Source: a virus
Strand: one strand, 5' to 3'
Length of the DNA: 29,486 bases
IMG/VR virus record: IMGVR_UViG_3300028394_000245
Span: 1-29,486 of that record
Shown here: piece after piece, positions 10,401-29,474 of the stretch
How positions within the stretch are numbered: position 1 is the stretch's first letter
How the letters are laid out: each line of letters opens with the position of its first letter
Program-made: the position numbers and the translations under genes
Notes under the pieces: generated by a model
Database searches by the model: none
Seen by the model: the letters and a program-made list of their open reading frames with translations, nothing else
What the model was told of the DNA's origin: nothing

Positions 10401-13400
10401 GACCATCTCGTCGCCGCTGCCGTAGCCGAACGTCTCGGCGACAACATCGGGGTCCAGCCCGTCCTTCCCAAGCATCCCATACTTGCCCGTCCCAAGCGGG
10501 GTGATGTCCGGGCGCACGTTTGCCGGCACGGCCATTCCCGTGGCGCGGATTGGCTCGACGCTTTCGGCCGACGGCATGCCGGCATACATGGCGCGGACTT
10601 TCTCGATGTCCAAACGGTGCGTTCCTTCAACCTCCACCTCGGCCCCGTCCGTGTCCACGAATCGACCGTAGCGCAGATAGGTCATGACCCGGTACACGGG
10701 TTCCACCTTGACGGCAGCGGCCACCTCGGCGGTGACTTCCTTACGCTTGGCTTCGTGCTTCTTCTGAAGGTCGCGCAGGATGCGGGCGCGTGCGTTCCCA
10801 AGCCACTGAAGCTGCCGCATGCTGGCGGTGTTCAGGTCGGTGACAGCAGCATCCGTAGCCTCCTGCTGCATGGCCTGGTACGCCGCCCACTCGGCGTCTG
10901 CCATGCCGCTCTCGGCCTGCGTCTGGAACAGACCCTTCATGCCACTGATGGCTTCCTGCCGCTTGATCTGCTCCTCGGATGCGAGCATGCGGTCGAACAC
11001 AGAGCGCACTTCGGACGTGAGGATCGGGAGGTCGGTGCCAAACTCGCGGCGATAGATCGCGTTTAAATCATCGCGAATCGACTTGTACACGCGGCGCATC
11101 CACGCAGCAAGACGGTCGAACACGCCGCGCAGCTCCACGCTTGGAGCCTTGCCTTCGTACAGGTAAATCTCGAAGTTGTAGGTGACCTTCTCCTCAAGCG
11201 GCCTGCGCTGGTCGATGGTCATCGTCTCGTAGTTGTCCAGGCGCTCCTGGGGCGTGGCCCCTTCCACGCCCATGAACACGAACAACGTATCAAGGTCATC
11301 CATCACACGCGCCGGCGGCGTGGCGCTTCGCGCCATGCGGAGGTACTCGGCGATGCGAAGGTGGATCAATTCGTGCGAGAGCGTCGATACGTCGCCGCCC
11401 TTGCCGACGAGTACGTTCAGAGTTCGCGGGTCGAATCCGCCGCGGGCTGGGCCGGCAGCGGCCTGCTCAAGGATGCCAGCCCGTCCTGCGGGTTGTTCTC
11501 CGGCTGCGGATCGCGCACGAATGGCATCGGCATTCGCAGCAGCCTCGTCAGCAAGGCGCTTTCCTTCTCCCGTGCCGCCGCCTCGGTCGGCCCACTTTGC
11601 GGCTTGCTCTTTGAGGCGCTGCTGGTTGACTTCCGGTCGGGTGTACCACGGGGCATTGCCACTCTCCGATACTTTAAATTTAGATGGGATAACCTTGTTG
11701 CCGGCCTTCTTGATTTCTGACAAGAACTTTCGGAACGAGGCTACGCTGAAATCATACGTTCCGCCAAGTGGCGTGACATACCGAAACCACGGAATTCCAT
11801 CACGGTCACGGTTGTATTGGGCGCCATACTCATACGCTCCGTATTCGCCTTCCTTACCGGACACTTTGGCAATTGCCTGGTCATCTCCCTTTGCATCAAG
11901 CAAGATGGCATCCAATGTGGCATGCGCGGCTTCCTGTTGGCTAAAGGCAACCCATGTTTCCCAATGGTAGCGTCCAATGCTTGCATCTTGCGGACGGCCA
12001 AGTTTGGCATACAACTCATCAATACGGCTTGCGAGCTGCCTTTCAATTGCTTCATAAACAAGAATGCCGCGGACACCTTCTGTGATTGCGTTCAATGACG
12101 ATCCGGCCAACTTCTTACCGTCATTGCTCATCACGCCGTCATACAAATTGGTGTCGGAAAATCTTCCGTCATCCCACAATTGCCGAACTTGAACGCGATC
12201 TAGCACCATTACGTCGTTGAATCCAGCAACAAGAAGAGTGAACGAAACAACCTTGTTGTCAATACCAACACCTTCGCCAAACGTGGAAAACTCCCGACGA
12301 ATCATCTTTCCGGTTTGATTCGGATCAGACATCATCTCGTGCAGTCGCTGTAGGTTCGACTTTCCGTCTGGGCCGATGGCTCCCATCTTCAACAGGAAGT
12401 TCTGGCCGAACGCATTGAGGTTGTGCGTTGCGCCGGCACCAGGCTGACCGCTTCCCTTCGGTGCTACTGACTTCGCCCATTTTTCATAGGCTTCAAGATC
12501 GTTTTCCGTAAACTGTCCTTGTGCTGCCTTGCGAATCCATTCATCAGCACCATTGAATGCGTCGATGAACAATGATTCCTGCGTGTATGGGCTGACGCCT
12601 CGAGACAGGAACGACCACAGGAACAACTTTCCGGTAGTTACGACATCAAGCTCGTTGTTCGTGTATGCGCGCCGGAACTCTCGAGCGTTGTCAAATCCGT
12701 GAGTTGCATCGGCGATCTGTCCTTCGGTGAGCGTCGATAGACGCTCAAACGAACCATCTCCGTTCGTATCTCGAATGAAGGCATACGGGGGAACCGGAAC
12801 GTCGTCGCTGCCGAAGGCGTAGGCCAGCATCTGTGCCCATGCTTCCGGCGATTGTCCAGCATCCGGGAACTGCTGAAGGATGCCATCAATATTCTCCAAC
12901 TGTTTTGCGGCGTTCTTGTTTGTCGTTCCTGTCAAAATCAATGGCTTGACCGGAAGCACCGCATTCGGAGTGATCTTGACACGCAGCCTCGGCCAGAATC
13001 CCATCTTGTTTTCCTCGGCGACACCAACACCTGGTGCATTTGCGCCGGCAAAAACAGCAGCCGCCTGCTCGAACAGCTTCGGGCTGGTGATGTCAAAGCG
13101 GCGCGACAACGGGACGATGTTGCCTTGCTCGTCATACGTGACGGGATCGGCAGACTTGACTTGCTCTGGGCGAGTGGCTACATAGAACGTCGATCTGTAG
13201 TCTTCGGTGTTTCGGAGCGTATTGATGTTCTGCTGCGAAATAGTTTCCAAATCACCGTTGATGATTCCCTCGATGCTCAACTCGCCTTCGTTCCAAGTCG
13301 GATCGAATTGCGACTTCACGTTCTCGATCTTGCCTGGATTCAGGTAAAGATCCATGCGACGGCCATACCAGCCTTCCGTCGAGCTGGTCAGCCAAATGCC

Positions 13401-16169
13401 GGGTCCACTCTGCATTCGCTCGATATCAAACGATGTGAATGGCTGTTCCGACTTTGTGAAGTGGTACACGGGAATTGTGTATCCACTTGCCATCGCCGCC
13501 TCATCCACCATGCGCTGCGCTGCTTCCATGTCGCCGCGCTCGACCGCCGCGAGGTAGTCGGCGTCCATGCGGGAGATGGCCGCCTGCTCAAGCGGCCCCT
13601 CCGCCTGTTGCGCTGCTGACGTTTCCCCTGGCGCAAATTTTGCCTCCAGCTTCGCACGCATTTCCGCTTCACGCTGGGCTTGTTTTTCTTCGTGTCGCTT
13701 CAGATCGGCTTCGGTTGCATAGGTGGCAATTACCTGACCCCTTGAAGCGACCTGCCCATTACGACGAATGATGGGACGGATGGTTTGCTTGATCGTGTCC
13801 GGTTCTTGGTTCCTTTCGTCAACTTCCTCCCAAGAAACCACCTCAACTTCAACCCATCCGTCTACGTATTTTTCCCCAATGGGGTTATGGATTTCAATTC
13901 CACGCTGTTGCATGAACGCATCAAGCTTGGCAAGCATTCCTTCCACTGCGGCAAGCATGTTGGCATCTAGGTTTTGACGATTATTGTTGAGGCGATTGCG
14001 AAGCCGCCATGCCTGATTGGCAATTTCCACATCGTCGTTGGCGTTGATTGCGTCGTTTAGGCGACGCACGGAATCCTTGATTCCGGCCACGGCCTTGGCA
14101 ATAGGATTCAAACTTTCAAGTTTTTCGTTTGCAACCTTTGCGTTCTGTTCTTCAATGCGTGCCGATAGTTCGCCCAAAGCGGTTTGGAGTGGATTGGTTT
14201 CGGTGTCAGTAAGCGGAGCAACTGCCTGTGATGGCGCAACTGGTGCAGCCATACCTTCGCCGCGCACCTGCAATGGCACGCCGCGCTCGCGCTGGTACTG
14301 CGCCGGCGTCATCCCGGCCTCGGCCGCGTCCACGACCACCATCGCCTGACGCAGCTTGGCAATCGTCCGCGCCTCGATGTCGGTGAACTGGCCGACCGCA
14401 CGAATCTGCTCAAACGCCTCGTCCTCAACTTGCTGCGCCTCGGCGACGAACGCCGCGTCGGCTTCCTGCTTCGCTGCAAGGATCGTGCGCGCCTCCTCCA
14501 CAACCGCCTGCCGCTCAGCCTCGAACGCCTGCGCTTCGGTCGCGCTCATGGCGTCCGGCGACAAACGCATGTGCGGCAGCAGCGCGTTCCCAAGTTCCGT
14601 GTTGGCGAGCCGAGCGCCAAACTGCGAGGTCGGGATGGTCACGTCGCCGCCCGTCTCCACGGCCTGTTCCAGACGTTCGCGGATGCCAGGGAGGAGTTCC
14701 TCGAGCTGCGCCGTCGTGGTGCCGCTCTGCGCGAGCACGTCACGGGCGGTGGCCGCGTCTACGTAGATCGTCTCTGCCGGCGTGTCCTGGGCCTGTGCGG
14801 CAAGGAAACGCTCGTATCCCTGCGGGTTGCGCTGGGCAAGTTTGCTTTCCTTGCGGTTCTCGGCGAGGCCGTTGAAGAAGTCCTGCTGCCGCTGCGTGGC
14901 GCTGGCGCGGCGCAGGTCAACAACGAGGTTCGCGCCGGGGCCGATGCCGCCGAGAAGGGCAGACGCCATGCCGCCGTATGCAAACGCCTCAATGACGCGG
15001 CCCGTGGCATCGCGCAGGCTCGTCTCGCTGTCGATCCCATCCGCTGCCTTGGCGATCTCCTCGGACGCGATGGCGACGATTTCCTGCAATCCTTCTTCGG
15101 ACGCCTCGCCTCCGACCTGGAGGCCATATGCCTTGCCAGCCGCGACGAGCGCCGAGCGCATGGTTGGCTGCGCGATGGCCTTGGAAACCTCCTTGCGGAT
15201 CACCTTGGACGCGAGTGCCTTAAACGGAGCGGCCGCGATCTTCATGCCGACCACTTCGATCAGACCGTTTAGGAAACCGCCGGCGATGGCTGCCGGGATA
15301 GCCGCGTCATCGGACACTCCCTGCTCGCGCATGTCGAGGTACAGGTTTCCGGCCTCCATCGTCCCCGTTCCAGCCATAACACCTGCCGTTGCGCCAAGTG
15401 CGCCACCAGCCACGGTGCCCGGCGGACCTGCCAAGCTGCCGAGCGCAGCGCCGCCAACGGTTGCTGTGCCGATAGTACGAAGCTGGCTGACGTTCTGCGC
15501 GATCATCTCTGCCGCGGAACCAACCAGTCCCTGCTGGCCGAGCGCCTGCATGCGCTGCGTGAGTTCTTTGGCACGGTCAAAATCGCCAGGTTCAGCGAAC
15601 CCAGCCATCGCCTTCGCACCAATATCGCCGCGCTTGGACACAATTGCCCCGCGCTCGTAACCCGCGCCGACCACACGGAACAATCCGCCCTGGGTCTGAA
15701 GCATCGCAGCCTCAAGCACCAGCGGTCGAAGCATGGACAGGACACCGACATCGTCGCTCGCCTGCGCGGCAAACTCACGGTCGGCGATGTATCTGGCGAG
15801 GACCGGGTCTTTCCGCAGGAGATCCATGCGCTCCGTGTCCTGGACCATTGCCTGCCGTCGCATTTCGGCCATGTTCCGCAACGCGATGTCCTGCCCGACG
15901 CCGAATCGCTTGCCGAGAACGTCGGCCTGCGCGGCCTCGTCGGGGTTCACCTCGGATGCAGCCATGAGCGAGGACGCCATGTCCTGTTTCCGCTGCGCGG
16001 CAATGTCCTGCACGGCGCGGTCAATGTTCATGTCCACGGGTTCCGGCGCTGGCATCGGGATGCCAGACATGCCAACGACCGCCTTCTCAATGGCGTCGAA
16101 ACCGGGGTCCGTGGGATTTTGGGAAAGCGCGAAGCGCGCCATCTGCTGGTTGATATCGGGTTCAATCAT
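7422..16169 (-). CDS. Giant (2,915-residue) polyvalent ejection protein, gp16-like position, with ART-like and HExxH metallopeptidase-like domains
   Basis: By position this is the last internal virion/ejection protein, after gp14- and gp15-like genes. Visible regions are: a Gly/Ala-rich hydrophobic stretch at about 232-272, possibly membrane-inserting; a polyvalent-protein-type module at about 468-545; and an ADP-ribosyltransferase-like domain starting near 900 (VYHFT, H903). That domain has a GIWLTSS strand and an end segment with QVKSADPVTYDEQGN, and is preceded by the typical DADYLAAVERGD helix. A zincin-like site, HELIH at 1599-1603, has a likely third ligand at E1659/E1660 before a YLYEGKAPS segment. 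Coiled coils fill about 1750-2240, and a C-terminal module has a hydrophobic span at about 2760-2784. No lytic transglycosylase was recognised. ATG 16169 overlaps the previous stop as ATGA with AGGAAAG upstream, and is preferred over ATG 16193. Confidence 0.85.
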   Translation of the reverse strand: MIEPDINQQMARFALSQNPTDPGFDAIEKAVVGMSGIPMPAPEPVDMNIDRAVQDIAAQRKQDMASSLMAASEVNPDEAAQADVLGKRFGVGQDIALRNMAEMRRQAMVQDTERMDLLRKDPVLARYIADREFAAQASDDVGVLSMLRPLVLEAAMLQTQGGLFRVVGAGYERGAIVSKRGDIGAKAMAGFAEPGDFDRAKELTQRMQALGQQGLVGSAAEMIAQNVSQLRTIGTATVGGAALGSLAGPPGTVAGGALGATAGVMAGTGTMEAGNLYLDMREQGVSDDAAIPAAIAGGFLNGLIEVVGMKIAAAPFKALASKVIRKEVSKAIAQPTMRSALVAAGKAYGLQVGGEASEEGLQEIVAIASEEIAKAADGIDSETSLRDATGRVIEAFAYGGMASALLGGIGPGANLVVDLRRASATQRQQDFFNGLAENRKESKLAQRNPQGYERFLAAQAQDTPAETIYVDAATARDVLAQSGTTTAQLEELLPGIRERLEQAVETGGDVTIPTSQFGARLANTELGNALLPHMRLSPDAMSATEAQAFEAERQAVVEEARTILAAKQEADAAFVAEAQQVEDEAFEQIRAVGQFTDIEARTIAKLRQAMVVVDAAEAGMTPAQYQRERGVPLQVRGEGMAAPVAPSQAVAPLTDTETNPLQTALGELSARIEEQNAKVANEKLESLNPIAKAVAGIKDSVRRLNDAINANDDVEIANQAWRLRNRLNNNRQNLDANMLAAVEGMLAKLDAFMQQRGIEIHNPIGEKYVDGWVEVEVVSWEEVDERNQEPDTIKQTIRPIIRRNGQVASRGQVIATYATEADLKRHEEKQAQREAEMRAKLEAKFAPGETSAAQQAEGPLEQAAISRMDADYLAAVERGDMEAAQRMVDEAAMASGYTIPVYHFTKSEQPFTSFDIERMQSGPGIWLTSSTEGWYGRRMDLYLNPGKIENVKSQFDPTWNEGELSIEGIINGDLETISQQNINTLRNTEDYRSTFYVATRPEQVKSADPVTYDEQGNIVPLSRRFDITSPKLFEQAAAVFAGANAPGVGVAEENKMGFWPRLRVKITPNAVLPVKPLILTGTTNKNAAKQLENIDGILQQFPDAGQSPEAWAQMLAYAFGSDDVPVPPYAFIRDTNGDGSFERLSTLTEGQIADATHGFDNAREFRRAYTNNELDVVTTGKLFLWSFLSRGVSPYTQESLFIDAFNGADEWIRKAAQGQFTENDLEAYEKWAKSVAPKGSGQPGAGATHNLNAFGQNFLLKMGAIGPDGKSNLQRLHEMMSDPNQTGKMIRREFSTFGEGVGIDNKVVSFTLLVAGFNDVMVLDRVQVRQLWDDGRFSDTNLYDGVMSNDGKKLAGSSLNAITEGVRGILVYEAIERQLASRIDELYAKLGRPQDASIGRYHWETWVAFSQQEAAHATLDAILLDAKGDDQAIAKVSGKEGEYGAYEYGAQYNRDRDGIPWFRYVTPLGGTYDFSVASFRKFLSEIKKAGNKVIPSKFKVSESGNAPWYTRPEVNQQRLKEQAAKWADRGGGTGEGKRLADEAAANADAIRARSAAGEQPAGRAGILEQAAAGPARGGFDPRTLNVLVGKGGDVSTLSHELIHLRIAEYLRMARSATPPARVMDDLDTLFVFMGVEGATPQERLDNYETMTIDQRRPLEEKVTYNFEIYLYEGKAPSVELRGVFDRLAAWMRRVYKSIRDDLNAIYRREFGTDLPILTSEVRSVFDRMLASEEQIKRQEAISGMKGLFQTQAESGMADAEWAAYQAMQQEATDAAVTDLNTASMRQLQWLGNARARILRDLQKKHEAKRKEVTAEVAAAVKVEPVYRVMTYLRYGRFVDTDGAEVEVEGTHRLDIEKVRAMYAGMPSAESVEPIRATGMAVPANVRPDITPLGTGKYGMLGKDGLDPDVVAETFGYGSGDEMVRALLAAKPMKEAVAERTDAEMLRRFGEMNTPAALEAEVQKALHNEARARFVAVELRHIAKATQPVRVMLESAKQVAADMISDMTVREVRPSEFVAAESRAARDATQINSSRDPVAAGKAAYTRAYNEAAAVGAPEDVRVAEALAAQADAVQKAQARIDELRKRYGADPQQALIRAKRAQLYQNQLAAEALRVKEYVDKQVKYLRGVMRDSNVKRMGAAAADQIASLLERFEVAQVSLKRLDERRTMAKYLADLEAAGVVPDIAEEITDEARRVNYKELKVSEFRDLVDAVRQIEHIGKNEQKMRLAEERAAFEEVRDEIVTRIRAVGKVRELQIDPRTPLTGIGRTAAFLRGFAAQHLKAASIARILDGGKEDGPLWNTIIRTANDASDMETRMRAEASLKLGEILKPVFALGNMGGKGMFFPSIGRSLNREARISIALNLGNDGNRQRLLDGEGWTMEKLQPVLESLTEAEWMAVQQVWDFIDGYRPEIAAKERRLYGKEPTWVTPVPFTVRTSDGKEVALQGGYYPVKYDPVASDRVATVDAAEDAKRELQGAYTAATTRRSFVKARAKEVRDRPLLYTLDAAFSGVNDVIHDLSWHEWLISTNRLLRDTQFANAVRETRGPEFLKQLRDWSKDNATGARGQQVAGESVLSWLRQGISASGLGFNVVSAAMQVTGFNQSIVRIGAKYVGQGIVQFSTSPFESSKMVAEKSSFMAERGRTQFREINEIKNRVRGQTEVARRVTAGTYFLMMNMQRSVDIPTWLGAYQKALDAGKDDARAVALADQAVRDSQGSGLVSDLAAVERGGPAMKLFTVFYSYMNTVYNMTAVQTMTARSKGKLAADYAILLVVPVVLGYAIKSIIQPDAGEDELDPEALARKLAAEELSYLMGTMVIVREFGGAAQLVTGAEGARMGYGGPAGLRAVGEVYGLATQAGQLEFDRAFRRAAINTLGAFTGLPSAQVNRTIDGIEALVEGEVTGPTAIVAPLTGVQR

Positions 16170-17932
16170 TGAGGCTTTCCTGCGCGGAGCCAAGTCTCTG
16201 CAATGTTTCGGATGTCGGTCGGGAGACCGGAACGCTCAAGTGCGGTGCGAATCTGCGTCATGCGTGCCGGAGGAATGTCGCGGAGCATAATGTCCTGCTT
16301 GTCCACAGTCACATATGCCTGCGCGAGTTCTCCAGGTGTCATGGACGCAAACGGCACTTCGGGGTCACTACCCCATCTGCTGACAAACACCTTGTCAAGA
16401 ACGGTCCGGTCAATGATGCGCTGCTTTTCGTCGCGTGAAAGCTGGCGGCCAATGCGCTCCTGCTCGGCGTTGATGAGCGTCTTGACGTTGTCGCGCATGT
16501 AAAGCGACTGTGCCGCCGCCGCATCATCACCACGTGGCGGATTTGCGATCTTGTTGAATCCGTTCCGAAGCAGCGTGGCCTCAAGCTGATCGGCGTCAAT
16601 TGTCGCCGATAGGATACGGTCGGGCTTGCCACGTTCGCCAAGCAGCTTGACGAAAGTTGAGTGCGTCATCTTGCTGCGGTTGCGCTCAAGCCAATCGCCG
16701 TCAGTCACAAGGGCTGGGTTACGTGCGACCTGCTCCATTACCGTCATCTCGTCCTGCTGCCGCTGGCCAGCCATGTACTTGGCTCTGTCAACTGGCCGGA
16801 GCCGGCCGAACTGGTCTGCCGGCATATCAGCGAGGCTGTTCCCAGGCACGGCGAGGAACTGCTCCGTGTTGTCAATTAGCGTGCGGTATTCTTGCTCAAT
16901 CAGGGCGTCATCCTGCGCGAACTGCGTCCGCAATTCGGCCTGGACAAACTTGCGAGTCTGGTCATCCGCAATCTGATCGGTCAGGACCATCGCTTCGCGC
17001 AAGGTCGTCGGCGGCTCGACCGGGCCGTCCTTCTGCTGCCAGTAGGTGTCCGGGTCGCTCTTGGACATCAGAAGCCCCGTGTCCTTGATGCTCGCTGCCA
17101 GTTCGCCAACCACCGACCGCTGACGGTTTGCATCCAACGACGAGCGAAGGCTAGTGTCAACCTTGGGATCAACCGGATGATCGTCAAGGAACGCTTCGGC
17201 CTGACCGTATTGACGGGCATTCATCAGATCATTTACGACACCAGTTGCCACCTTGTCGTAGACCTTCTGCTCCATCATCTTCATCTGCTCGCTGCCCTCA
17301 GGAATGCCATTCAAGGACGCCGCCTTGCGGACTTCCTGGACCGCGATCTCAAGATTGGCCTGATAGTTGACTAGCCCCATCGGACGGCCAGCAACGTCGG
17401 TCTTATTGCGGTCACCGTAGGAAATGATGGCAAGGTCGGAATACTTGTCTGCTCGAGCTGCGGCCTCGTTGGATGCCCACTGCTTTGTCTGCGCGTTGCG
17501 GTGGTCGTACATCTGACTTTGGAATGTCGCCATGTTCCGCGCAGCAACTTGCTGGAACATCCTCTTCTGCGTGTCATTCCCAAGCCCGTCCATGATGCCG
17601 TTCACCGCAGATGACATTTGATCGACAGACGACTGATAGTTCGACTCCGCGTCCTTGCCGGACTTGGACATAAAGTCAGAACGAATCTTCGTCATCACGC
17701 CAATGGCGGCGGTGTCGGCCTCCTTGGTGGCGGCATCGTCAATGTCATCCTGCATGGCAGAGCCAAGGCGGTATGCCGTATTGCCAGCGGCAATCATGGC
17801 TCGCCCCAATTCCTCCTGCTGCTTAGACGTGGCCTCGTCCATCGGCATGACGGGCGGTGCCTGGTACGGCACAAACGAACCCTCCCCGGCCATTCCAACC
17901 TGCGGGATAAACGAACTTGGTACGGTGGGCAT
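16166..17932 (-). CDS. Internal virion/ejection protein, T7 gp15-like by position
   Basis: The product has 588 residues, is largely helical and polar, and has no signal peptide or membrane span. Its Met/Gln/Ala/Asp-rich helices and long repeated helical hairpins fit the internal core proteins that podoviruses eject with their DNA to build a channel across the cell envelope. It lies between a gp14-like gene and the giant gp16-like gene, exactly the T7 order of core proteins. It starts with ATG at 17932, with GAGGAA just upstream, 12 bases after the stop of the gp14-like gene. Its stop overlaps the start of the giant gene (ATGA), so the two are probably made in linked amounts. The name rests on order and composition, not on clear sequence similarity. 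Confidence 0.75.
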   Translation of the reverse strand: MPTVPSSFIPQVGMAGEGSFVPYQAPPVMPMDEATSKQQEELGRAMIAAGNTAYRLGSAMQDDIDDAATKEADTAAIGVMTKIRSDFMSKSGKDAESNYQSSVDQMSSAVNGIMDGLGNDTQKRMFQQVAARNMATFQSQMYDHRNAQTKQWASNEAAARADKYSDLAIISYGDRNKTDVAGRPMGLVNYQANLEIAVQEVRKAASLNGIPEGSEQMKMMEQKVYDKVATGVVNDLMNARQYGQAEAFLDDHPVDPKVDTSLRSSLDANRQRSVVGELAASIKDTGLLMSKSDPDTYWQQKDGPVEPPTTLREAMVLTDQIADDQTRKFVQAELRTQFAQDDALIEQEYRTLIDNTEQFLAVPGNSLADMPADQFGRLRPVDRAKYMAGQRQQDEMTVMEQVARNPALVTDGDWLERNRSKMTHSTFVKLLGERGKPDRILSATIDADQLEATLLRNGFNKIANPPRGDDAAAAQSLYMRDNVKTLINAEQERIGRQLSRDEKQRIIDRTVLDKVFVSRWGSDPEVPFASMTPGELAQAYVTVDKQDIMLRDIPPARMTQIRTALERSGLPTDIRNIAETWLRAGKPQ

Positions 17933-23102: not shown

Positions 23103-24134
23103 TTAGGACACCTGTGCTTCGGTGTTGAGGATGGCATCCACGCGACGCAGCGGGATTCCCAAGAACGAGAGGTACGAAGCAGCAGTACCAAACTGCGACA
23201 GACCTTCGTTGACCTTCAGGACGTACTGGCTCTTATCAAGAGCCATCACCGACAGGCCGCTGTGAACGGTGCGGTTCATGTAGAAGGCAGCACGGCCCAT
23301 CGACATGTTCGGAATGCGGTACATGGCGCGAGCCATTGCACGAATCAGGTTGTACGAAGCGCCCACAGCCTGGCTGTCTCCCTGCGCAAACAGATGGCTG
23401 GTGTTGATGTTGGCAATACGCACAACGTAACGCCAATCCTTCACGACCAAGCCGTTCTTCCACTGGTAGCGAGTGGCATACGCCTGCAGGCGGGTGCCGT
23501 CGCTGTTGTAGACGGTCTGCTCGCCAAGATCCTCATGGATTAGGCCGGCCTTGCTGCCCTTCGGAAAGGGGCAGTAAACGGTCTGATCGCCCCACACAAC
23601 CAGGTACACCGAGGTGTTTGCCGTAGAGGAGTAAGAACCAGTAGTGAGGCTGTTGATGACGTTTGCGCCGTTACCAGCAGAGGTGGACGAATACCGGGTA
23701 GCAAGTCCAAGGAACTGCTTCGGATCGGTCGCCGGATTGCCGTAGAACAGAGTCGTGGCCTGAGTCTGGTTCATGGCCTCAAGGAACGCCGTGTCTTCAG
23801 ACAGACGGAACTGAGCCGTGTTGCCGTTGAGCATGGCGAGGTCCTTGTCGACTTCGCTGCGAGCCTCAAGGATGCCGCAAGCTTCATCGACCTGCGCGGT
23901 CGTGGACTTGCTGTTCGGAATGCCCTGGTTGAGCGCACGCCAGTACACGGTCGGCAGACCAGTACGGATGACCACGCGGTCGCCCGTGGGCAGGTTGCCT
24001 TCCTTGAACACGCAATCCTCAAGGATTTCGTTGCTTTGAGAAAGAAGTTCGGCAATGACCGGGACGCGGCCATCGGGATCGGTGCGCTTTGCCCAATCGG
24101 CAAGAGTCAGATTAGTAGCGGTAATTGCTGCCAT
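23103..24134 (-). CDS. Major capsid protein (BPP-1 Bbp17/GP7-like)
   Basis: The 343-residue protein has the size and pattern of the HK97-fold capsid proteins of the BPP-1/Gp7 group. It has a helical N-terminal arm with Leu-Thr-Leu-Ala-Asp-Trp-Ala-Lys, then a Leu-Pro-Thr-Val-Tyr-Trp-Arg-Ala-Leu-Asn-Gln-Gly-Ile strand at about 60-72. An acidic helix contains Asp-Lys-Asp-Leu-Ala-Met-Leu-Asn-Gly, and a Tyr-Gly-Asn-Pro turn precedes Phe-Leu-Gly-Leu. The C-terminal region contains FYMNRTVHSGL and GIPLRRVDAIL, both typical of this group. AAGGAG eight bases upstream of ATG 24134 is a strong ribosome binding site, as expected for the most abundant virion protein. It lies directly after the scaffold gene. 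Confidence 0.92.
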   Translation of the reverse strand: MAAITATNLTLADWAKRTDPDGRVPVIAELLSQSNEILEDCVFKEGNLPTGDRVVIRTGLPTVYWRALNQGIPNSKSTTAQVDEACGILEARSEVDKDLAMLNGNTAQFRLSEDTAFLEAMNQTQATTLFYGNPATDPKQFLGLATRYSSTSAGNGANVINSLTTGSYSSTANTSVYLVVWGDQTVYCPFPKGSKAGLIHEDLGEQTVYNSDGTRLQAYATRYQWKNGLVVKDWRYVVRIANINTSHLFAQGDSQAVGASYNLIRAMARAMYRIPNMSMGRAAFYMNRTVHSGLSVMALDKSQYVLKVNEGLSQFGTAASYLSFLGIPLRRVDAILNTEAQVS

Positions 24135-24159: not shown

Positions 24160-24834
24160 TTACGAGTGATTGGAATAGAGGGCGGCCGCTGCGCCAGCAA
24201 AGTCCATTGGTCCGTTCGACTTTCCGTTCGATGAACCCGTGGATGGCCCGACGTAGCGATCCTCACTGATTGCCTTCCCTGCCCTGAACATGAACCGGAT
24301 TACTTCCGGGTGATTGCCCAGGCCAGAGTCGTTGAGCAACGTGCGCAGTTCGGCGGTGCCGAACGTGTCAAGTGCCTTCTTCGCAACTGAAAGGTTCTCG
24401 GTGATCTTGTCACCACCAAATTCCTTGTCGGCCTTTGAAGATTCCGCCCATTGCGAGCGGACTGCCTCAACCTGTGCTGCCTGCCGCGTGCCAATCTTTT
24501 CGGACATCGCGGTAAGCATTTTCTGCGCGGCATCTTGGGTCAGGTTCAATTCCTTGGCAACCTCCGAGAACGCTTCCACGGTCTCGGCGTCGAGCTGCTT
24601 GCCCTCAGGGGCCTTGAACTCGTACTTCTCCGGCGCGCCTTCCGGCTTCGCCTGCTCGGTTGCCTCCGGCTTGCCAGTATCGGCCGACTCCGCGGCTTGC
24701 TGGTCCTGTGCCTTCGGTGCTTGCTGCTGTTCCCCGTAAAGTGCCTCAGCCGTCGCCGTTGCGCTCTTCGGGGCTTCAGATGCCGGAATGCCGTTATTGT
24801 TCGTTAAGGCTTCCGTCATCGTTGGTTCGGTCAT
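24160..24834 (-). CDS. Capsid scaffolding protein (Bbp18 position)
   Basis: The 224-residue protein is acidic and Ala/Glu/Gln/Lys-rich, with a disordered N-terminal third (Pro, Gln, Ala). A long helical middle (about 85-125) follows, and a basic Gly/Ser-rich stretch lies near the end. That is the usual make-up of phage scaffolds that organise capsid subunits and then leave or are digested. It lies immediately upstream of the major capsid gene. AAGGAG seven bases upstream fixes the ATG at 24834. The coding sequence overlaps the end of the Bbp19-like gene by 41 bases. Confidence 0.82.
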   Translation of the reverse strand: MTEPTMTEALTNNNGIPASEAPKSATATAEALYGEQQQAPKAQDQQAAESADTGKPEATEQAKPEGAPEKYEFKAPEGKQLDAETVEAFSEVAKELNLTQDAAQKMLTAMSEKIGTRQAAQVEAVRSQWAESSKADKEFGGDKITENLSVAKKALDTFGTAELRTLLNDSGLGNHPEVIRFMFRAGKAISEDRYVGPSTGSSNGKSNGPMDFAGAAAALYSNHS

Positions 24835-25138
24835 TGGTTTGCTCCTTCATCATGGTTGGGTACAACTCAGAACAGAGAGCGTGAACCTGTGAGAGAGTGC
24901 GGAGTCCGTAGTTCCTGTTGCCCTCGGCGAAAGCCATTGCCATCGCGTTGGTGTTGAAAGACGAACGAAACACTCCTGCCTGGTCCAGTAGCCGCCATAC
25001 GACTCGGCGACCTCGCTTGCTGCTCATCAACCATCGAATGTCCGACTCCTCGCTTTCGCGCTCAAGCTTGTCGCGCATGGCACGGTTGGCCTGAATGCGC
25101 TCTTGACCGCGAATGTCGAGCGGGTCGTGTGTACTCAT
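24794..25138 (-). CDS. Bbp19-like phage protein
   Basis: The 114-residue product matches the small Bbp19-type proteins of BPP-1-like phages. It has a DPLDIRGQER opening, a basic helix, and then the conserved block IRWLMSSKRGRRVVWRLLDQ (about 34-53). After that come Ala-Gly-Val-Phe-Arg-Ser-Ser-Phe, a GNRNYG turn at about 78, and a helix with Leu-Tyr-Pro-Thr-Met-Met. Its molecular role is unknown, but it is consistently next to scaffold and capsid genes. The ATG at 25138 has no clear ribosome binding site and is preceded by a 40-base leader that starts with the GGGACCCATAG element. Confidence 0.82.
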   Translation of the reverse strand: MSTHDPLDIRGQERIQANRAMRDKLERESEESDIRWLMSSKRGRRVVWRLLDQAGVFRSSFNTNAMAMAFAEGNRNYGLRTLSQVHALCSELYPTMMKEQTNDRTNDDGSLNEQ

Positions 25139-25178: not shown

Positions 25179-25592
25179 TTAGGCAAGGCGAGTCAGCTTG
25201 TAAAGCGTTGAAGAGATCAGCGTGCAAATCGCGTCGATCTCGTTCTGAATGTGGCTCTCGGTACCCATGACCATGCGGTCGGCCTCAAGGTACTCGTAGA
25301 CCTTCTGCACTTCGGCCAGCGGGGTCGGTGCCATTTCAAACGCGCCAGGGCCAAACTTGAGCTTCTCGCCCGTGCAACCCATCCAAGCCTCGGCAAGATC
25401 GTCAATGGCCTCGCGCAGCGGTTCGTACACGCTCAGGGCGTTGTGGGCGGCAAAGCTGCCCGGACCCTCCACCATTAGGTGGTGCATGTGAATGGCGTTC
25501 GCGCAGTGCATGAGGCGCGAGATAAAGGCCGATGCGCCGGCGGCGTCACCCTTGGATTCGGGACCGTAAAGAAGCGTCATTGCCTTTGCCAT
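25179..25592 (-). CDS. Dps/ferritin-like helical phage protein
   Basis: The 137-residue protein is mostly helical. H38-LMVE-G43-PGS-F47-AA-H50, followed by D64, D65 and E68, closely resembles the ferroxidase segment of Dps proteins. In E. coli Dps, H51 and H63 are likewise 12 apart and are followed by D78 and E82; here the final acid is one residue closer. A second helical half (about 90-137) contains E94, E100, E103, E112 and E118. Length is somewhat below Dps (about 160). Dps proteins bind and oxidise iron and protect DNA, but in a phage head cluster the fold may serve another purpose. The gene lies four bases after the portal gene, with AGAGGT upstream of ATG 25592. The assignment rests on motif spacing only. 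Confidence 0.6.
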   Translation of the reverse strand: MAKAMTLLYGPESKGDAAGASAFISRLMHCANAIHMHHLMVEGPGSFAAHNALSVYEPLREAIDDLAEAWMGCTGEKLKFGPGAFEMAPTPLAEVQKVYEYLEADRMVMGTESHIQNEIDAICTLISSTLYKLTRLA

Positions 25593-25595
25593 GTG

Positions 25596-27311
25596 TCAGA
25601 CCTCTACTGCGGAAGGGGAGTTGTAACCGGAGAACATGTTCATTACGTCCGTCAGGGCATTCTGCTGGCCTCCGGTCGGGGCCTGCGCCATGTTCTTGAC
25701 AGTCTGCGACTGCTGCTGCATGGCAGCGGCCTGGGCCTGCGCCGCCTGCGCCTTGGCTCGAGCATCGCGCACCATTGCCACGTTCTTGTCGGCAATGATG
25801 AGGCTCGGGTCCACGCCAAGCATGTCGCTGTAAATGTCGGCCCACTGGTCGGCATCAAACTTGTCTAGGACATCCGGCTTGAATGCGGCCACCGCGCCGA
25901 GGTTGCCCACGAAACGGTCCACGCTGTTGGTGCCAATGGCACGCTGCGCCTGAGCAAGCATGGACACAAACTCCACCGACAGATCCATGCCCTGCAATTC
26001 CTCGGGGGCGGGCGGGATCAGGCCGGCAGTAATCATGTGGGTGAACGTGCTGTCAATGAGCGGGTCCAGCAGTTCGTTGTGCAGGCGCTCAAGGACCGGG
26101 CCAAGCATCAGCAGCTTCTCCTCGTGCCGCTCAGCCACCTCGGTCGCGGTCATGCGCGTGTCCGTGGCGTTGGCAAGCATCAGGAACAGGTCGGCGTAGA
26201 ACGCACCACGCACGCGCTCGCGGCAGTCCTGAATGTCCATCAGCAAGTGCTGAAGGTTCAGGTTGACATCAAACGCCGTGCGGATGGGCTGCGAGGTACC
26301 GTCCACGAAAGTGACGCCACCAGGCAGCATCTCCACATCGCGGTTCTTCATGGAGATCGGGACCTGAAGCGGCGGCTTGGTTTGGTAGTCAATGACCTGC
26401 GCCTTGCGAAGCTGCTCATGTTGCAGCTGCTTGATGTCGCCAAGCGCCTCCATGCCAGGACTGTTGCCGTAGATGTCGCCGCCGGCAGTTGCCCACCGGG
26501 GGACAAGGCACGGGAAATGCTGGAAACCGCCAACGCGTAAGAACTTGTCTTGCTCGCCGCCGACCTCAAAATACCACGACCCGAACGGCATGTTCTTGCT
26601 GTCGCGCTTCTTGATGTCGCGGTCGGCACGCGGCTCAATGGCGTGGATGATGGGAATCCACTTGTCCAGGTTGCCGCGGTCATACATGCTCTTGACCGTG
26701 TTGGAACAGTTGTCGTAACCAAACTCCTTCACGATCTCGCCGACGGTCTTTTCGAACTCCCGGTACAGCGTGCAGACGCGGCCTTGGTAATCGGTGGCGA
26801 TGCAGTATTCGCCCGTGGTCACTGGGTAGTGATGCACCACGTTTTTGAAGTCGGGCAGCATGATGCTCGCCGCCGTGCCGAAGCAGCCCAGTTCCTCGTA
26901 CATCTGATGCAGGGCGCGGTAGGTGTTCGACCTCTGAAACACCGCCTGCATCCGCTTGGTCACATCGTCCAGCCACATCTTCACGGGCTGGTACGAGTTG
27001 AGCTGCGGGTCAGCGGTGGCAAGTCGAAACCACGGGCGAGCGGGCGAGGTCGCTCCGGCCATCATGCCGGCCCCGAGCGTTCGCAGCGCCCGCGTGCCCG
27101 TGTTGTCGTAGATGTTGTTGTGACGCCGCCATCCCTTGTCGCGGTCCTGCCGGAAGTAACGGCCGTTGCGCGGGAGGATGTAGGTGGTCAATTCCTGATA
27201 GTGCGCCCACCAGGTGGCGCGTTCGGTCTTGAGCTGACCCCAGCGGGTGAACAACTGGTCCCGCCTGGGTGCGCCCGGATACGAACCTCCGTCACCTGTG
27301 TATTGGCTCAT
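25596..27311 (-). CDS. Portal (head-to-tail connector) protein, T7-like
   Basis: The 571-residue product matches podovirus head-to-tail connecting proteins. An N-terminal helix holds RWGQLKTERATWWAHYQELTTYILPRNGRY (in two parts, about 24-53). NNIYDNTGTRAL and then LGAGMMAGATSPARPWF (about 81-97) follow, a hallmark of this portal family. Later come a Glu-Tyr-Cys-Ile-Ala-Thr-Asp strand, an Arg-Gly-Ala-Phe-Tyr-Ala-Asp-Leu-Phe-Leu-Met-Leu stretch and a Thr-Ala-Thr-Glu-Val-Ala-Glu-Arg-His-Glu-Glu-Lys helix. The C-terminal part is a Gln/Ala-rich helix (barrel-like). It forms the dodecameric ring through which DNA is packaged. No strong ribosome binding site is visible, and its start lies four bases from the preceding gene's stop, so coupled translation is likely. 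Confidence 0.92.
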   Translation of the reverse strand: MSQYTGDGGSYPGAPRRDQLFTRWGQLKTERATWWAHYQELTTYILPRNGRYFRQDRDKGWRRHNNIYDNTGTRALRTLGAGMMAGATSPARPWFRLATADPQLNSYQPVKMWLDDVTKRMQAVFQRSNTYRALHQMYEELGCFGTAASIMLPDFKNVVHHYPVTTGEYCIATDYQGRVCTLYREFEKTVGEIVKEFGYDNCSNTVKSMYDRGNLDKWIPIIHAIEPRADRDIKKRDSKNMPFGSWYFEVGGEQDKFLRVGGFQHFPCLVPRWATAGGDIYGNSPGMEALGDIKQLQHEQLRKAQVIDYQTKPPLQVPISMKNRDVEMLPGGVTFVDGTSQPIRTAFDVNLNLQHLLMDIQDCRERVRGAFYADLFLMLANATDTRMTATEVAERHEEKLLMLGPVLERLHNELLDPLIDSTFTHMITAGLIPPAPEELQGMDLSVEFVSMLAQAQRAIGTNSVDRFVGNLGAVAAFKPDVLDKFDADQWADIYSDMLGVDPSLIIADKNVAMVRDARAKAQAAQAQAAAMQQQSQTVKNMAQAPTGGQQNALTDVMNMFSGYNSPSAVEV

Positions 27312-27649: not shown

Positions 27650-28108
27650 CTATGTTCCTTTGAAATACTGCGTTTCCGATTTGGCGTATCCAAACCGAGT
27701 TAGCATTCGTTCGACGTTTGGTCCATGATCCATTTCAAGCGACGCCATGAACATGCATTCGGCGTTGTTTTCTTTTGCCCAATCCTCGTATGCCTTCAAC
27801 AAACGAAACGCAATTGGAGTGTTTCGGGCATGAGGCTCAACCCACCAGGCAAGTTCGGATGCCATCATGCGTGATGGCGCAAACCAAACTGGGCCAATCA
27901 CCGCGACAAACATTGCAACCAATTCGTTGTCAACTTCTGCCACGAATACGCCAAACATCGGCGTGTCAACAATTATGCGAGATTGAGCGACAAGCTCTTC
28001 TTCGTTCGGCTCCATCAATGCGCCGTGCGGCGCGTACCTGATGAAATGCCGTGCCATCCGAACCAACGATGGAATGTCATCCTGCGTTGCTCGTCGAATG
28101 CACGACAT
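27650..28108 (-). CDS. GNAT-family N-acetyltransferase
   Basis: The 152-residue product has the GNAT order of elements. It opens IRRATQDDIPSLVRMARHF (strand and helix 1). MFGVFVAEVDNELVAMFVAVIG (in two strands, about 51-72) follows, then the strand-turn-helix ELAWWVEPHARNTPIAFRLL (85-104), where acetyl-CoA normally binds. The end is Leu-Thr-Arg-Phe-Gly-Tyr with a final strand. The acetyl-CoA loop lacks the usual glycines (Arg-Asn-Thr-Pro-Ile-Ala). The acceptor is unknown. An ATG at 28162 would add 18 residues and overlap the terminase by 14 bases with GAGGAG upstream. The start at 28108 is preferred because the GNAT fold begins there and it leaves a 40-base leader equal to that before the Bbp19-like gene. 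Confidence 0.82.
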   Translation of the reverse strand: MSCIRRATQDDIPSLVRMARHFIRYAPHGALMEPNEEELVAQSRIIVDTPMFGVFVAEVDNELVAMFVAVIGPVWFAPSRMMASELAWWVEPHARNTPIAFRLLKAYEDWAKENNAECMFMASLEMDHGPNVERMLTRFGYAKSETQYFKGT

Positions 28109-28137
28109 ACGCGCAACCGTACCCCTCGGCTTGCCGC

Positions 28138-28148
28138 CTATGGGTCCC
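28138..28148 (-). promoter_or_regulatory. GGGACCCATAG element, copy 3 (after the terminase gene)
   Basis: On the - strand GGGACCCATAG begins directly after the TGA of the large terminase gene. It opens a 40-base leader before the acetyltransferase ATG at 28108 and is followed by GC, as in copy 2 (shared 13-mer GGGACCCATAGGC). If the acetyltransferase actually starts at 28162 the element would fall inside its coding region. The placement next to a stop codon matches the other two copies. Confidence 0.48.
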
Positions 28149-29474
28149 TCAAGTGTTCGCATACGGGTCGTACTCCTCGGATTTGTTCTTCTTCACGCGG
28201 TCATAGATGTCGCGTGGCAGCTTCTTGCGAACTGGGAATGCAAACGTGAGCGCAAGCGCGTCGGCAATGTCCGGTGAGCCGCCGCCCTGGAGTCGCTTCT
28301 TGATCTCGTCCTTGGCCTCGAGCATGCGCTTGCCAGCCGCGTCATACCAGTAGATCGGCGTGGACAACTCTTGCTTCAAGTCAACGTGGTTCGGGATTGC
28401 GCCGCCCTGCTCGATCCATTCTTTGATCGACCACCACATTTCCGTGCGGCGGTTGACAAACAGGTTGGATTGAATTGCCTTGCCGCCGAATGGCACCTCC
28501 ACGATGTCGTAGTCCAGTTGCCGGAGTCGGTCGATGACGCCTGCGCCAGCACCGCTGTCGATGAACACGGCGTCCGGGTCCCAAGTCTCAATGATGTTGG
28601 CCACCCTTGAAGCCAGTTCCATGTTGTCGATGCCACGGTAAACCGTTGGCTCAAACGCCTGGATGCCCTGCCGCTTGATGATGACGCTGCGGTCATCTCC
28701 AAACCGTGCGGGGTCCACGCCAAGGACCTTGGGCGCACCGTCAATATCCTTGTCGATATACACGCGCTGCGCTGCGGCCTCGGCATCGGCCAAGGAAATC
28801 AGCTGGTCATCGCCCGCCGCGCTGAAGTCGCACAGGTACTCGCGTGCAAACGCCTGCTCAGGCATGTCGCGCTTCAAGCGCAGCACCTCGTCCTTATCCA
28901 GCGCGTCAGTATCGTTAACGGTATAACGAGCGGCCATCCAATCGGGCAGACTGTTTGCCCGGTAGAACAGCTCGCTGAACAGGTTGATGCCAGCAGGGGT
29001 GCCGATGAACATGGCCCAACCCTTGCGGTCGGACAGCGCGGGCTGGATGATGTCGTTCCACACCTCGGGCCGAATCTGCGCGACCTCGTCAATGACGCAG
29101 CCGTCCAGGCGCACGCCGCGCAGGGCGTCCGGGTTGTCGCCACCAAACAGGCGGATGGTCGCCCCGTTGTGGGCAAACGTCACGGACAAGTCGGCCTCGT
29201 TGACCTCAAGCGCGGCCACGCTACGCAGGGGTAGCAACTTCTGTTTGAGCCGCATCCAAGCAATGGCCTTGGCTTGCTTGAGGAACGGCGCAACGTAGAC
29301 AAAGAACCCTAGTTCCGCCTTGCAGCGGACGGCCTTGTCAATCAGCTCCATGATGGCTAGTTCGGTCTTGCCAGCGCGGCGGTGCAGGGCAAGCACGGTG
29401 AAACGCCGCCGGCTCAGGTGACACTGGCGCTGCCACGGCCTGGGGTTGTACAGCAGGTCAATTTCTTGGGGCAT
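28149..29474 (-). CDS. Terminase large subunit (TerL)
   Basis: The 441-residue protein is the ATPase-nuclease motor that packages DNA. Walker A is ALHRRAGKTE (29-38, K36-T37), Walker B is CVIDE with D129 and E130, and the coupling motif is FIGTP (156-160). The RNase H-like nuclease is shown by LGVDPA (D254), VFIDSGAG (D306) and SPDIADALALT (D402, D405). Length is close to family norms, and both domains appear intact. The ATG at 29474 gives a protein that starts just before the conserved NPRPWQRQ segment. Only 12 bases upstream are visible, and they show no clear ribosome binding site, so an earlier start beyond the window cannot be excluded. The small subunit gene would be expected to the right of the window. 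Confidence 0.95.
   Translation of the reverse strand: MPQEIDLLYNPRPWQRQCHLSRRRFTVLALHRRAGKTELAIMELIDKAVRCKAELGFFVYVAPFLKQAKAIAWMRLKQKLLPLRSVAALEVNEADLSVTFAHNGATIRLFGGDNPDALRGVRLDGCVIDEVAQIRPEVWNDIIQPALSDRKGWAMFIGTPAGINLFSELFYRANSLPDWMAARYTVNDTDALDKDEVLRLKRDMPEQAFAREYLCDFSAAGDDQLISLADAEAAAQRVYIDKDIDGAPKVLGVDPARFGDDRSVIIKRQGIQAFEPTVYRGIDNMELASRVANIIETWDPDAVFIDSGAGAGVIDRLRQLDYDIVEVPFGGKAIQSNLFVNRRTEMWWSIKEWIEQGGAIPNHVDLKQELSTPIYWYDAAGKRMLEAKDEIKKRLQGGGSPDIADALALTFAFPVRKKLPRDIYDRVKKNKSEEYDPYANT

Follow-up and report, generated by a model that had tools for sequence, protein, structure and literature searches.

The gene at 25179..25592 (minus strand) of the window, by which we mean the whole 29,486-nucleotide stretch of viral DNA analysed here, lies among the head genes of a podovirus of the BPP-1-like kind. 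Its product, which we name DPSL, is predicted to have a ferritin-like fold, carries an invariant set of His and acidic residues, and bears in its N-terminal tail a short motif that recurs in a probable scaffold protein and in Bbp20. On balance we favour the reading that DPSL is a Dps-derived metalloprotein that enters the procapsid by means of a docking peptide like that of the scaffold and carries out iron chemistry there.

The original prediction, which described a Dps-like metal-site pattern in a phage head gene, placed the ORF exactly, and H38, H50, D64, D65 and E68 were all found where it had put them. The ORF starts with ATG and encodes a protein of 137 aa (14.9 kDa, pI 5.2, charge -7). 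Its location between portal and Bbp19-like genes was borne out as well: directly upstream lies the gene of the portal, or head-tail connecting protein (25596..27311; Pfam PF12236, Head-tail_con, E 5.2e-183), and directly downstream that of a Bbp19-like protein (24794..25138; PF25181, E 7.8e-17), followed by the genes of a 224-aa phrog_458 protein, the probable scaffold (24160..24834), and of the major capsid protein (MCP) of the GP7 family (23103..24134; PF20911, E 5.1e-126), all on the minus strand. The complete same-strand order is terminase, GNAT acetyltransferase, small gp14-like protein, portal, DPSL, Bbp19, phrog_458 protein, MCP GP7 and Bbp16. The GNAT acetyltransferase gene, located between terminase and portal (27650-28162, minus strand), recurs in many relatives. 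Elsewhere in the window, an ORF of 2923 aa (7422-16193, minus strand) passes the cut-off for LPD22 and shows a weak, sub-threshold match to ART-PolyVal; its product is a large polyvalent protein that is probably injected. A bacterial origin or a prophage was rejected: the profile search of genome contigs gave no relative, and the sequence's own record is a virus record of 29,486 bases.

By Pfam, DPSL is a member of DUF5856 (PF19174; 46.3 bits against a curated cut-off of 34.6, E 9.5e-12), and it also matches phrog_858 (E 1.3e-18), which PHROGs labels 'starvation-inducible transcriptional regulator'. A role in transcription regulation was set aside, as no convincing DNA-binding domain was present among the Pfam or NCBIfam matches, and so was a role in defence or counter-defence, for which PADLOC gave no match. 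Relatives were detected by tblastn (E up to 1) in 511 of 50,697 phage records, 503 of them with at least 80% query coverage. Judged by the first word of their names these are mostly Salmonella, Klebsiella and Escherichia phages, and the family records examined belong to Ackermannviridae, Straboviridae, podoviruses and one Methylophilaceae phage. The record of Dickeya phage PP35 already names its member a putative starvation-induced DNA protecting protein; the literature searched did not contain DUF5856 by name. The genomic contexts of DUF5856 genes differ widely between phage groups. In T4-like phages (L033, L034, L035 and L038) the gene comes directly after rI, the lysis-inhibition gene, or a membrane-protein label standing for it; L091 and L124 have it ahead of an HNH endonuclease, and in MW202483 it follows a P22-like portal. 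The clade of the window differs from other DUF5856 proteins in its portal-Bbp19 slot in BPP-1-like podoviruses, in an LLY[GDE] tail and in a longer loop joining helix A to helix B, while sharing the invariant site with the rest of DUF5856/phrog_858, including LIMEstone1 ORF78 and Sajous1 gp217.

Conservation was assessed in homologues collected from 167 loci, 166 of which gave a match; 158 of these were complete and 111 distinct. Eight columns, H35, H38, H50, Y56, D64, E68, G72 and D120, are the only ones invariant in all 111 distinct complete homologues. Six of the eight are His or acidic (hypergeometric P 2.7e-4), and the whole set stayed invariant after thinning to 61, 23, 9 and 6 sequences, the last six sharing less than 40% mutual identity. 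On the minus strand of the window, H35 and H38 are encoded within 25479..25490, H50 at 25443..25445, D64 and E68 within 25389..25403, and D120, for which no Dps counterpart was identified, at 25233..25235. Of the residues first noted (H38, H50, D64/D65 and E68), the His residues, D64 and E68 are kept in 111/111, whereas D65 varies (G in 50, S in 22 and D in 11 of the 111) and was discarded as a ligand, D64 being the acid that matters; H35 and D120 are additional to that list. We regard it as very probable that DPSL carries a metal-binding site.

The spacing of these residues was compared with that in six plasmid-borne Dps proteins, where H40, H52, D67 and E71 are invariant, giving spacings of 12, 15 and 4. 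The D64-E68 spacing is always 4 in the 111 homologues. Between H50 and D64 it is 14 in DPSL and in 36/111 homologues, and 15, as in Dps, in the other 75; between H38 and H50 it is 12 in 45 homologues and 9 in 66. Both HMMER and hhalign matched H38, H50, D64 and E68 to the ligand columns of Dps, which we take to be H31, H43, D58 and E62 in Listeria numbering. The position of a fifth Dps ligand (D/E four residues after the second His) is acidic in all six plasmid Dps proteins; DPSL has S54 there, and its homologues have Q, G, S or N in 103 of 111 cases and an acidic residue in 8. The ligand lost in DPSL corresponds to D47 of Listeria Dps.

An AlphaFold2 monomer model of DPSL, built from 35 sequences, reached a pLDDT of 90.7 and a pTM of 0.83, with a disordered start followed by helices at 17-40, 46-74, 91-109 and 113-136 and coil at residues 75-90. 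The predicted fold is a four-helix ferritin-like bundle with Dps as its nearest match, in line with the helical, Dps-like protein originally proposed. Neither of the two outcomes named beforehand as refuting that proposal, a different fold or a His/acid set missing from homologues, was observed. In a Foldseek search of the PDB, 46 of the best 50 of 562 matches (E up to 10) were Dps or ferritin-type and the remaining four were other helical proteins; Dps ranked first with a probability of 1.00, but the best E value was 0.069 and none fell below 0.001, so that this search is not significant alone. VIA-align superposed the model on M. smegmatis Dps2 (Z 13.1, rmsd 2.4, 123 residues, model 14-137) and on E. 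coli Dps (Z 12.7, rmsd 2.9, 131 residues, model 5-137), Z values near 13 being at a level where helical bundles can match by general arrangement. We hold the ferritin-like fold of DPSL to be almost certain. Three predicted phage proteins, named prohead protease, in BFVD (A0A6J7XDU5, A0A6J7WPK9 and A0A6J7WIS1; 333, 763 and 432 aa, respectively) also resemble the DPSL model, which suggests that ferritin-like domains may be fused to head-maturation proteins as another route into the procapsid.

By the helix limits of the model, helix A has H38 close to its end and helix B has H50 close to its start, so that both His residues are at the same end of the bundle; D64 and E68 follow 14 and 18 residues beyond H50 along helix B. 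Within one subunit the two acids would be some 20 Å or more from H38 and H50. D120, which is seven residues from the start of helix D, is expected at roughly the height of E68. A site formed by all six residues within a single subunit was set aside on helix geometry only. Given this separation of H50 from D64/E68 along a single helix, the two halves of the site, His and acid, would meet only across a subunit contact. In Dps the metal site is formed across such a contact.

Sequence comparisons point to a relationship with Dps. When the PDB was searched with the single sequence, MrgA (E 0.48) and NAP of H. pylori (E 1.2) were the only matches, both aligned over the motif, and a profile of 14 diverse members matched H. 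pylori NAP at E 5.8e-5, with 11 of its 13 matches below E 0.01 named Dps, Dlp, NAP, non-haem ferritin or bacterioferritin. Aligned by hhalign to the six plasmid Dps proteins, the 14-row alignment gave a probability of 88.5 and E 2.7e-6 with the H, H, D and E residues in register; from a larger, 35-row alignment the result was weak (probability 37, 38 columns). Because fold, order and spacing of the motif, and profile score agree, each being modest singly, common descent with Dps is likely, DPSL being a divergent, compact protein derived from Dps or sister to it. Like the Dps proteins or mini-ferritins (E. coli Dps, Listeria Dps, H. pylori NAP and B. subtilis MrgA), it is a four-helix bundle of similar size with His, His, Asp and Glu in the same order, D-x3-E and, in most homologues, H-x14-D. 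It differs from them in being shorter, in the lost fifth ligand, in having no Trp after the first His, in being acidic with no Lys-rich tail, and in the extra invariant H35 and D120. The short BC helix found in Dps at the two-fold contact has no counterpart in the AlphaFold2 monomer of DPSL, and PF00210 (Ferritin) was not among the Pfam matches of DPSL up to E 1; two of the six fetched Dps proteins were scanned as a control and both matched it at E < 1e-26. On account of the fifth ligand, the BC helix and PF00210, we did not file DPSL as Dps proper. A Dps-like shell of dodecameric kind, also among the original suggestions, stays conjectural, since the model is of a monomer that has no BC helix and one canonical ligand is gone. 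The idea of a DNA-protecting factor, as far as it implies DNA binding, found no support: with the protein's acidity and with K3 and K14 as the only lysines of its tail, binding of DNA by a basic tail is unlikely.

In the IMG/VR loci that hold both genes (several contigs occur twice), DPSL follows the portal on the same strand. An independent set was fetched with the portal and restricted to loci with at least 600 bases downstream, which omitted 12 of 80 loci as too short; DPSL was present in 24 of the 68 close portal relatives and absent from 44. It is therefore an accessory gene of a fixed slot, and an obligatory head part was rejected. The same slot is used by Bbp20 (eps15 gp10-like; PF21628, phrog_825), a protein of a different family in which no metal site was recognised; DPSL as its strict replacement was also rejected: of 90 loci that had a unique portal sequence and were covered on both flanks, 12 contain both genes. 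The manner of collecting these loci favoured DPSL. Over 27 loci with complete genes, distances between DPSL sequences tracked those of the portal (Mantel rho 0.58, 0/500 permutations) and of the scaffold (rho 0.53, 0/500), and more weakly those of the MCP (rho 0.29, 3/500).

The disordered N-terminus of DPSL contains L7-L8-Y9-G10 (25563..25574, minus strand). LLY[GDE] was found in this tail in 44 of 45 distinct head-cluster homologues, taken as those whose locus includes a complete portal, scaffold or Bbp19 partner (G in 32, D in 8 and E in 4; the exception is L077), and in one of the 66 other distinct homologues. That one is zth2-2, where the gene lies near lysis-type ORFs (named by eye from sequence) and not near the portal, and LLYG is kept. 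The phrog_458 protein carries a similar motif at both ends: LYG occurs within the first 60 aa, near residue 32, in 47 of 62 distinct homologues, and LY within the last 16 aa in 57 of 62. In the window these are ATAEALYG (residues 27-34; 24733..24756) and FAGAAAALYSN (24169..24201), both on the minus strand. In Bbp20 the motif is C-terminal, with LYG within the last 30 aa in 16/16, often twice. Among the remaining head-cluster proteins, LYG anywhere in the sequence was found in 2/65 TerL and in none of the GNAT (0/41), gp14-like (0/72), portal (0/85), Bbp19 (0/45), MCP (0/56) and Bbp16 (0/52) sequences, and LY in the last 16 aa in 5/85 portals and in no TerL, GNAT, gp14-like, Bbp19, MCP or Bbp16. 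Shuffled tails contained the motif in 0.2% (DPSL), 2.3% (Bbp20), 0.16% (scaffold N-terminus) and 7.5% (scaffold C-terminus) of cases. Of 6582 distinct ORFs scanned blindly, 128 had LYG no more than 45 aa from an end, and scaffold (48/63), DPSL (32/45) and Bbp20 (16/16) were the sole sense-strand families in which more than one member was tagged; all these counts are of related sequences and not of independent events. The LY in the C-terminal helix of DPSL (TLYKL; 48/111 have LY in the last 16 aa) was rejected as a tail motif, being in a folded helix.

The phrog_458 protein is probably the scaffold, to judge by its position ahead of the MCP, its helical core with loose tails and the absence of a Pfam match. 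Its AlphaFold2 model is weak (mean pLDDT 57.5, with residues 1-66 and 193-212 below 50), and the isolated helices within it, 27-33 and 212-221, are the two LY motifs. An isolated helix in a disordered tail is a common arrangement for docking helices. A stronger test was whether the C-termini of scaffold and Bbp20-like proteins, which are not homologous, vary together. They were compared in nine phages, chosen because both genes were available, and six of the nine lie entirely beyond the set used when the motif was first counted; four phages, DC33, ctEw122 and others with no complete scaffold in the fetched stretch, were omitted. In 9/9 of these diverse phages the two tails were closer within a phage than between phages, with a mean similarity of 11.6 within and 3.0 between, reached by 11 of 20000 permutations. 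The scaffold/Bbp20-like pairs include SAAEVLYG/SAAETLYG in phiV10, SAFYP/DAFYP in eps15, RLYAAS/RLYGAS in BPP-1 and RAAKLY/RAAKFY in BcepC6B. In our reading the LY motif would let its carriers dock to a single partner, which is most likely the shell. In Limnohabitans phage DC33 (L245 6045-6212) and ctQRb9 (L246 6016-6195), small lysine-rich proteins (55 and 59 aa) end in AAEKLYGKDKDKK and SAEKLYPDQGKEKKKKG, respectively; these are a third kind of small protein with the same motif and lie beside Bbp20. DC33 (PQ492659.1) is filed under Inoviridae, yet it has a BPP-1-like portal and head genes, and its taxonomy line looks wrong.

Two relatives of DPSL have been reported in virions. ORF78 of Dickeya phage LIMEstone1 (13.15 kDa) was detected with three unique peptides and 28.21% coverage (PMC3296691), and we found ORF078 to be the DUF5856 gene of this phage. 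In Salmonella phage Sajous1, gp217 was reported with 10 spectra in CsCl-purified virions and was called ferritin by Phyre2 with 96.7% confidence (PMC10892097); it is encoded at MW021757 154947-155300 and is a DUF5856 protein (E 1.3e-28). The authors of that study proposed a 'Ferrojan horse' entry route, described five phages as infecting TonB- and FeoB-deficient Salmonella with similar efficiency, and cautioned that low spectral counts may be contamination (PMC10892097). Because these two relatives were detected in purified virions, an iron-binding virion part, one of the roles offered by the original prediction, is favoured as to the virion, while iron binding itself stays putative. Both come from Ackermannviridae, are distant from the clade of the window and have no LLY tail. 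That DPSL is present in virions or procapsids of its own clade we consider fairly probable. A Dps-like virion protein as such is not wholly new, a ferritin-like virion protein of the DUF5856 family being already in print, and the new part of the present finding is the targeting.

DPSL may alternatively be an intracellular Dps-like enzyme that is made late, stays unpackaged and lowers free iron or peroxide damage, its place in the head operon reflecting late expression only. A role of this kind is described as proposed for the Dps-type genes of gut 'Gratiaviridae' and of Lactobacillus phages (PMC8008677, PMC6669764), and it would suit an accessory gene whose relatives lie beside rI or an HNH endonuclease, far from head genes. 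The two relatives in virion proteomes speak against it; it gives no role to a conserved tail common to scaffold and Bbp20, and the zth2-2 copy keeps that tail even away from the portal. We consider this explanation unlikely.

Slightly less likely again is that the LY motif docks to another shared partner, such as the portal, a protease or the tail machinery, or marks cleavage sites, DPSL then being recruited elsewhere. The docking partner of the motif is itself deduced, and phrog_458 is labelled protease by PHROGs and by the eps15 record, contrary to the scaffold reading. Bbp20 is moreover homologous to eps15 gp10, a modelled capsid protein of PDB 3j40 (E 1.1e-11; L244 4663-4992 against chain N), which we take to be a staple on the outer capsid face. 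That position is in tension with an inner docking site, or else the gp10 assignment needs a second look, because the cement protein of BPP-1 is Bbp16 (PMC3863775). The eps15 homologue of Bbp16 is annotated gp8, so that the capsid models of eps15 and BPP-1 name different genes for auxiliary proteins. Against another partner, the scaffold motifs are modelled as isolated helices in disordered tails, as in docking; against cleavage, BPP-1 MCP and cement protein are described as appearing uncleaved in mature particles (PMC3863775).

Least probable, and in our view quite doubtful, is that DPSL is a structural or assembly protein of head or connector whose His/acid set holds a structural metal (e.g., zinc) or stabilises a dimer with no redox role: its constant position behind the portal in the IMG/VR loci, the P22-like portal preceding the family member of MW202483, the loss of one canonical Dps ligand and the tracking of portal distances would fit, but the 44 of 68 close portal relatives that do without it indicate that this head type can be assembled without DPSL, and the same invariant site across Ackermannviridae, Straboviridae and podoviruses argues for chemistry and not for a fit to one head.

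In the mechanism that we favour, DPSL would be made together with the head proteins, and its flexible LLY[GDE] tail would imitate the LY helices with which either terminus of the probable scaffold docks, and so lead to loading into the procapsid; we put the chance that the tail loads DPSL at a little better than even. The metal site would be made of H35 and H38 on helix A and of H50, D64 and E68 on helix B, with its His and acid halves brought together between subunits in the manner of Dps. In the particle, or delivered with the DNA, DPSL would most likely bind and oxidise Fe2+, and Fenton iron would be removed beside the packaged or freshly injected genome, to the presumed benefit of the phage. 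Whether iron oxidation is the main function of DPSL we judge to be an even question.

Two known systems resemble this scheme. The internal proteins of T4 are described as having only a capsid targeting sequence in common, which loads them into the scaffolding core and also loads foreign proteins (PMC3012670). The LY tail is similarly a short, conserved terminal peptide common to otherwise unrelated head proteins; unlike the T4 sequence, it is also present at both ends of the probable scaffold, and no sign of its cleavage was seen. The two also differ in sequence. Encapsulin cargo, often ferritin-like, is reported to be loaded by a peptide of ~10 residues at either end, so that a ferritin-like protein encoded beside an HK97-type shell enters it via a terminal peptide (PMC7355545), as we propose for DPSL. 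The compartment differs, being a DNA-filled phage head and not a nanocompartment, and for DPSL the loading is our deduction. Cargo-loading peptides of encapsulins occupy a hydrophobic pocket of the shell protein, on its inner face. By analogy, DPSL would combine the ideas of T4 targeting and of encapsulin cargo. The BPP-1 and T4 head literature consulted, which was not selected for this motif, gave no mention of the LY docking motif of these phages, and we do not claim its absence from print.

If this reading is right, it would give a function to a family that occurs in 511 phage records, and is labelled hypothetical, structural or transcriptional regulator in those listed, and the question of virion iron raised by the 'Ferrojan horse' could be tested with a defined protein and site. 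The LY tail would be a predictive signature that marks other small tagged proteins (e.g., that of DC33) as candidates for internal proteins of the virion, and chosen proteins could be loaded into these podovirus heads by attaching it, as has been done with the T4 targeting sequence. More tentatively, and as a possibility that we rate well below the mechanism itself, accessory proteins of BPP-1/eps15-like podoviruses may be loaded into the procapsid through a peptide that generally mimics the scaffold ([AS]xx[LIMF]Y[GPSA]-like), one lineage using it for a ferroxidase derived from Dps; in that case the head, while carrying its own DNA, would resemble an encapsulin that handles iron and would deliver iron chemistry to the next host.
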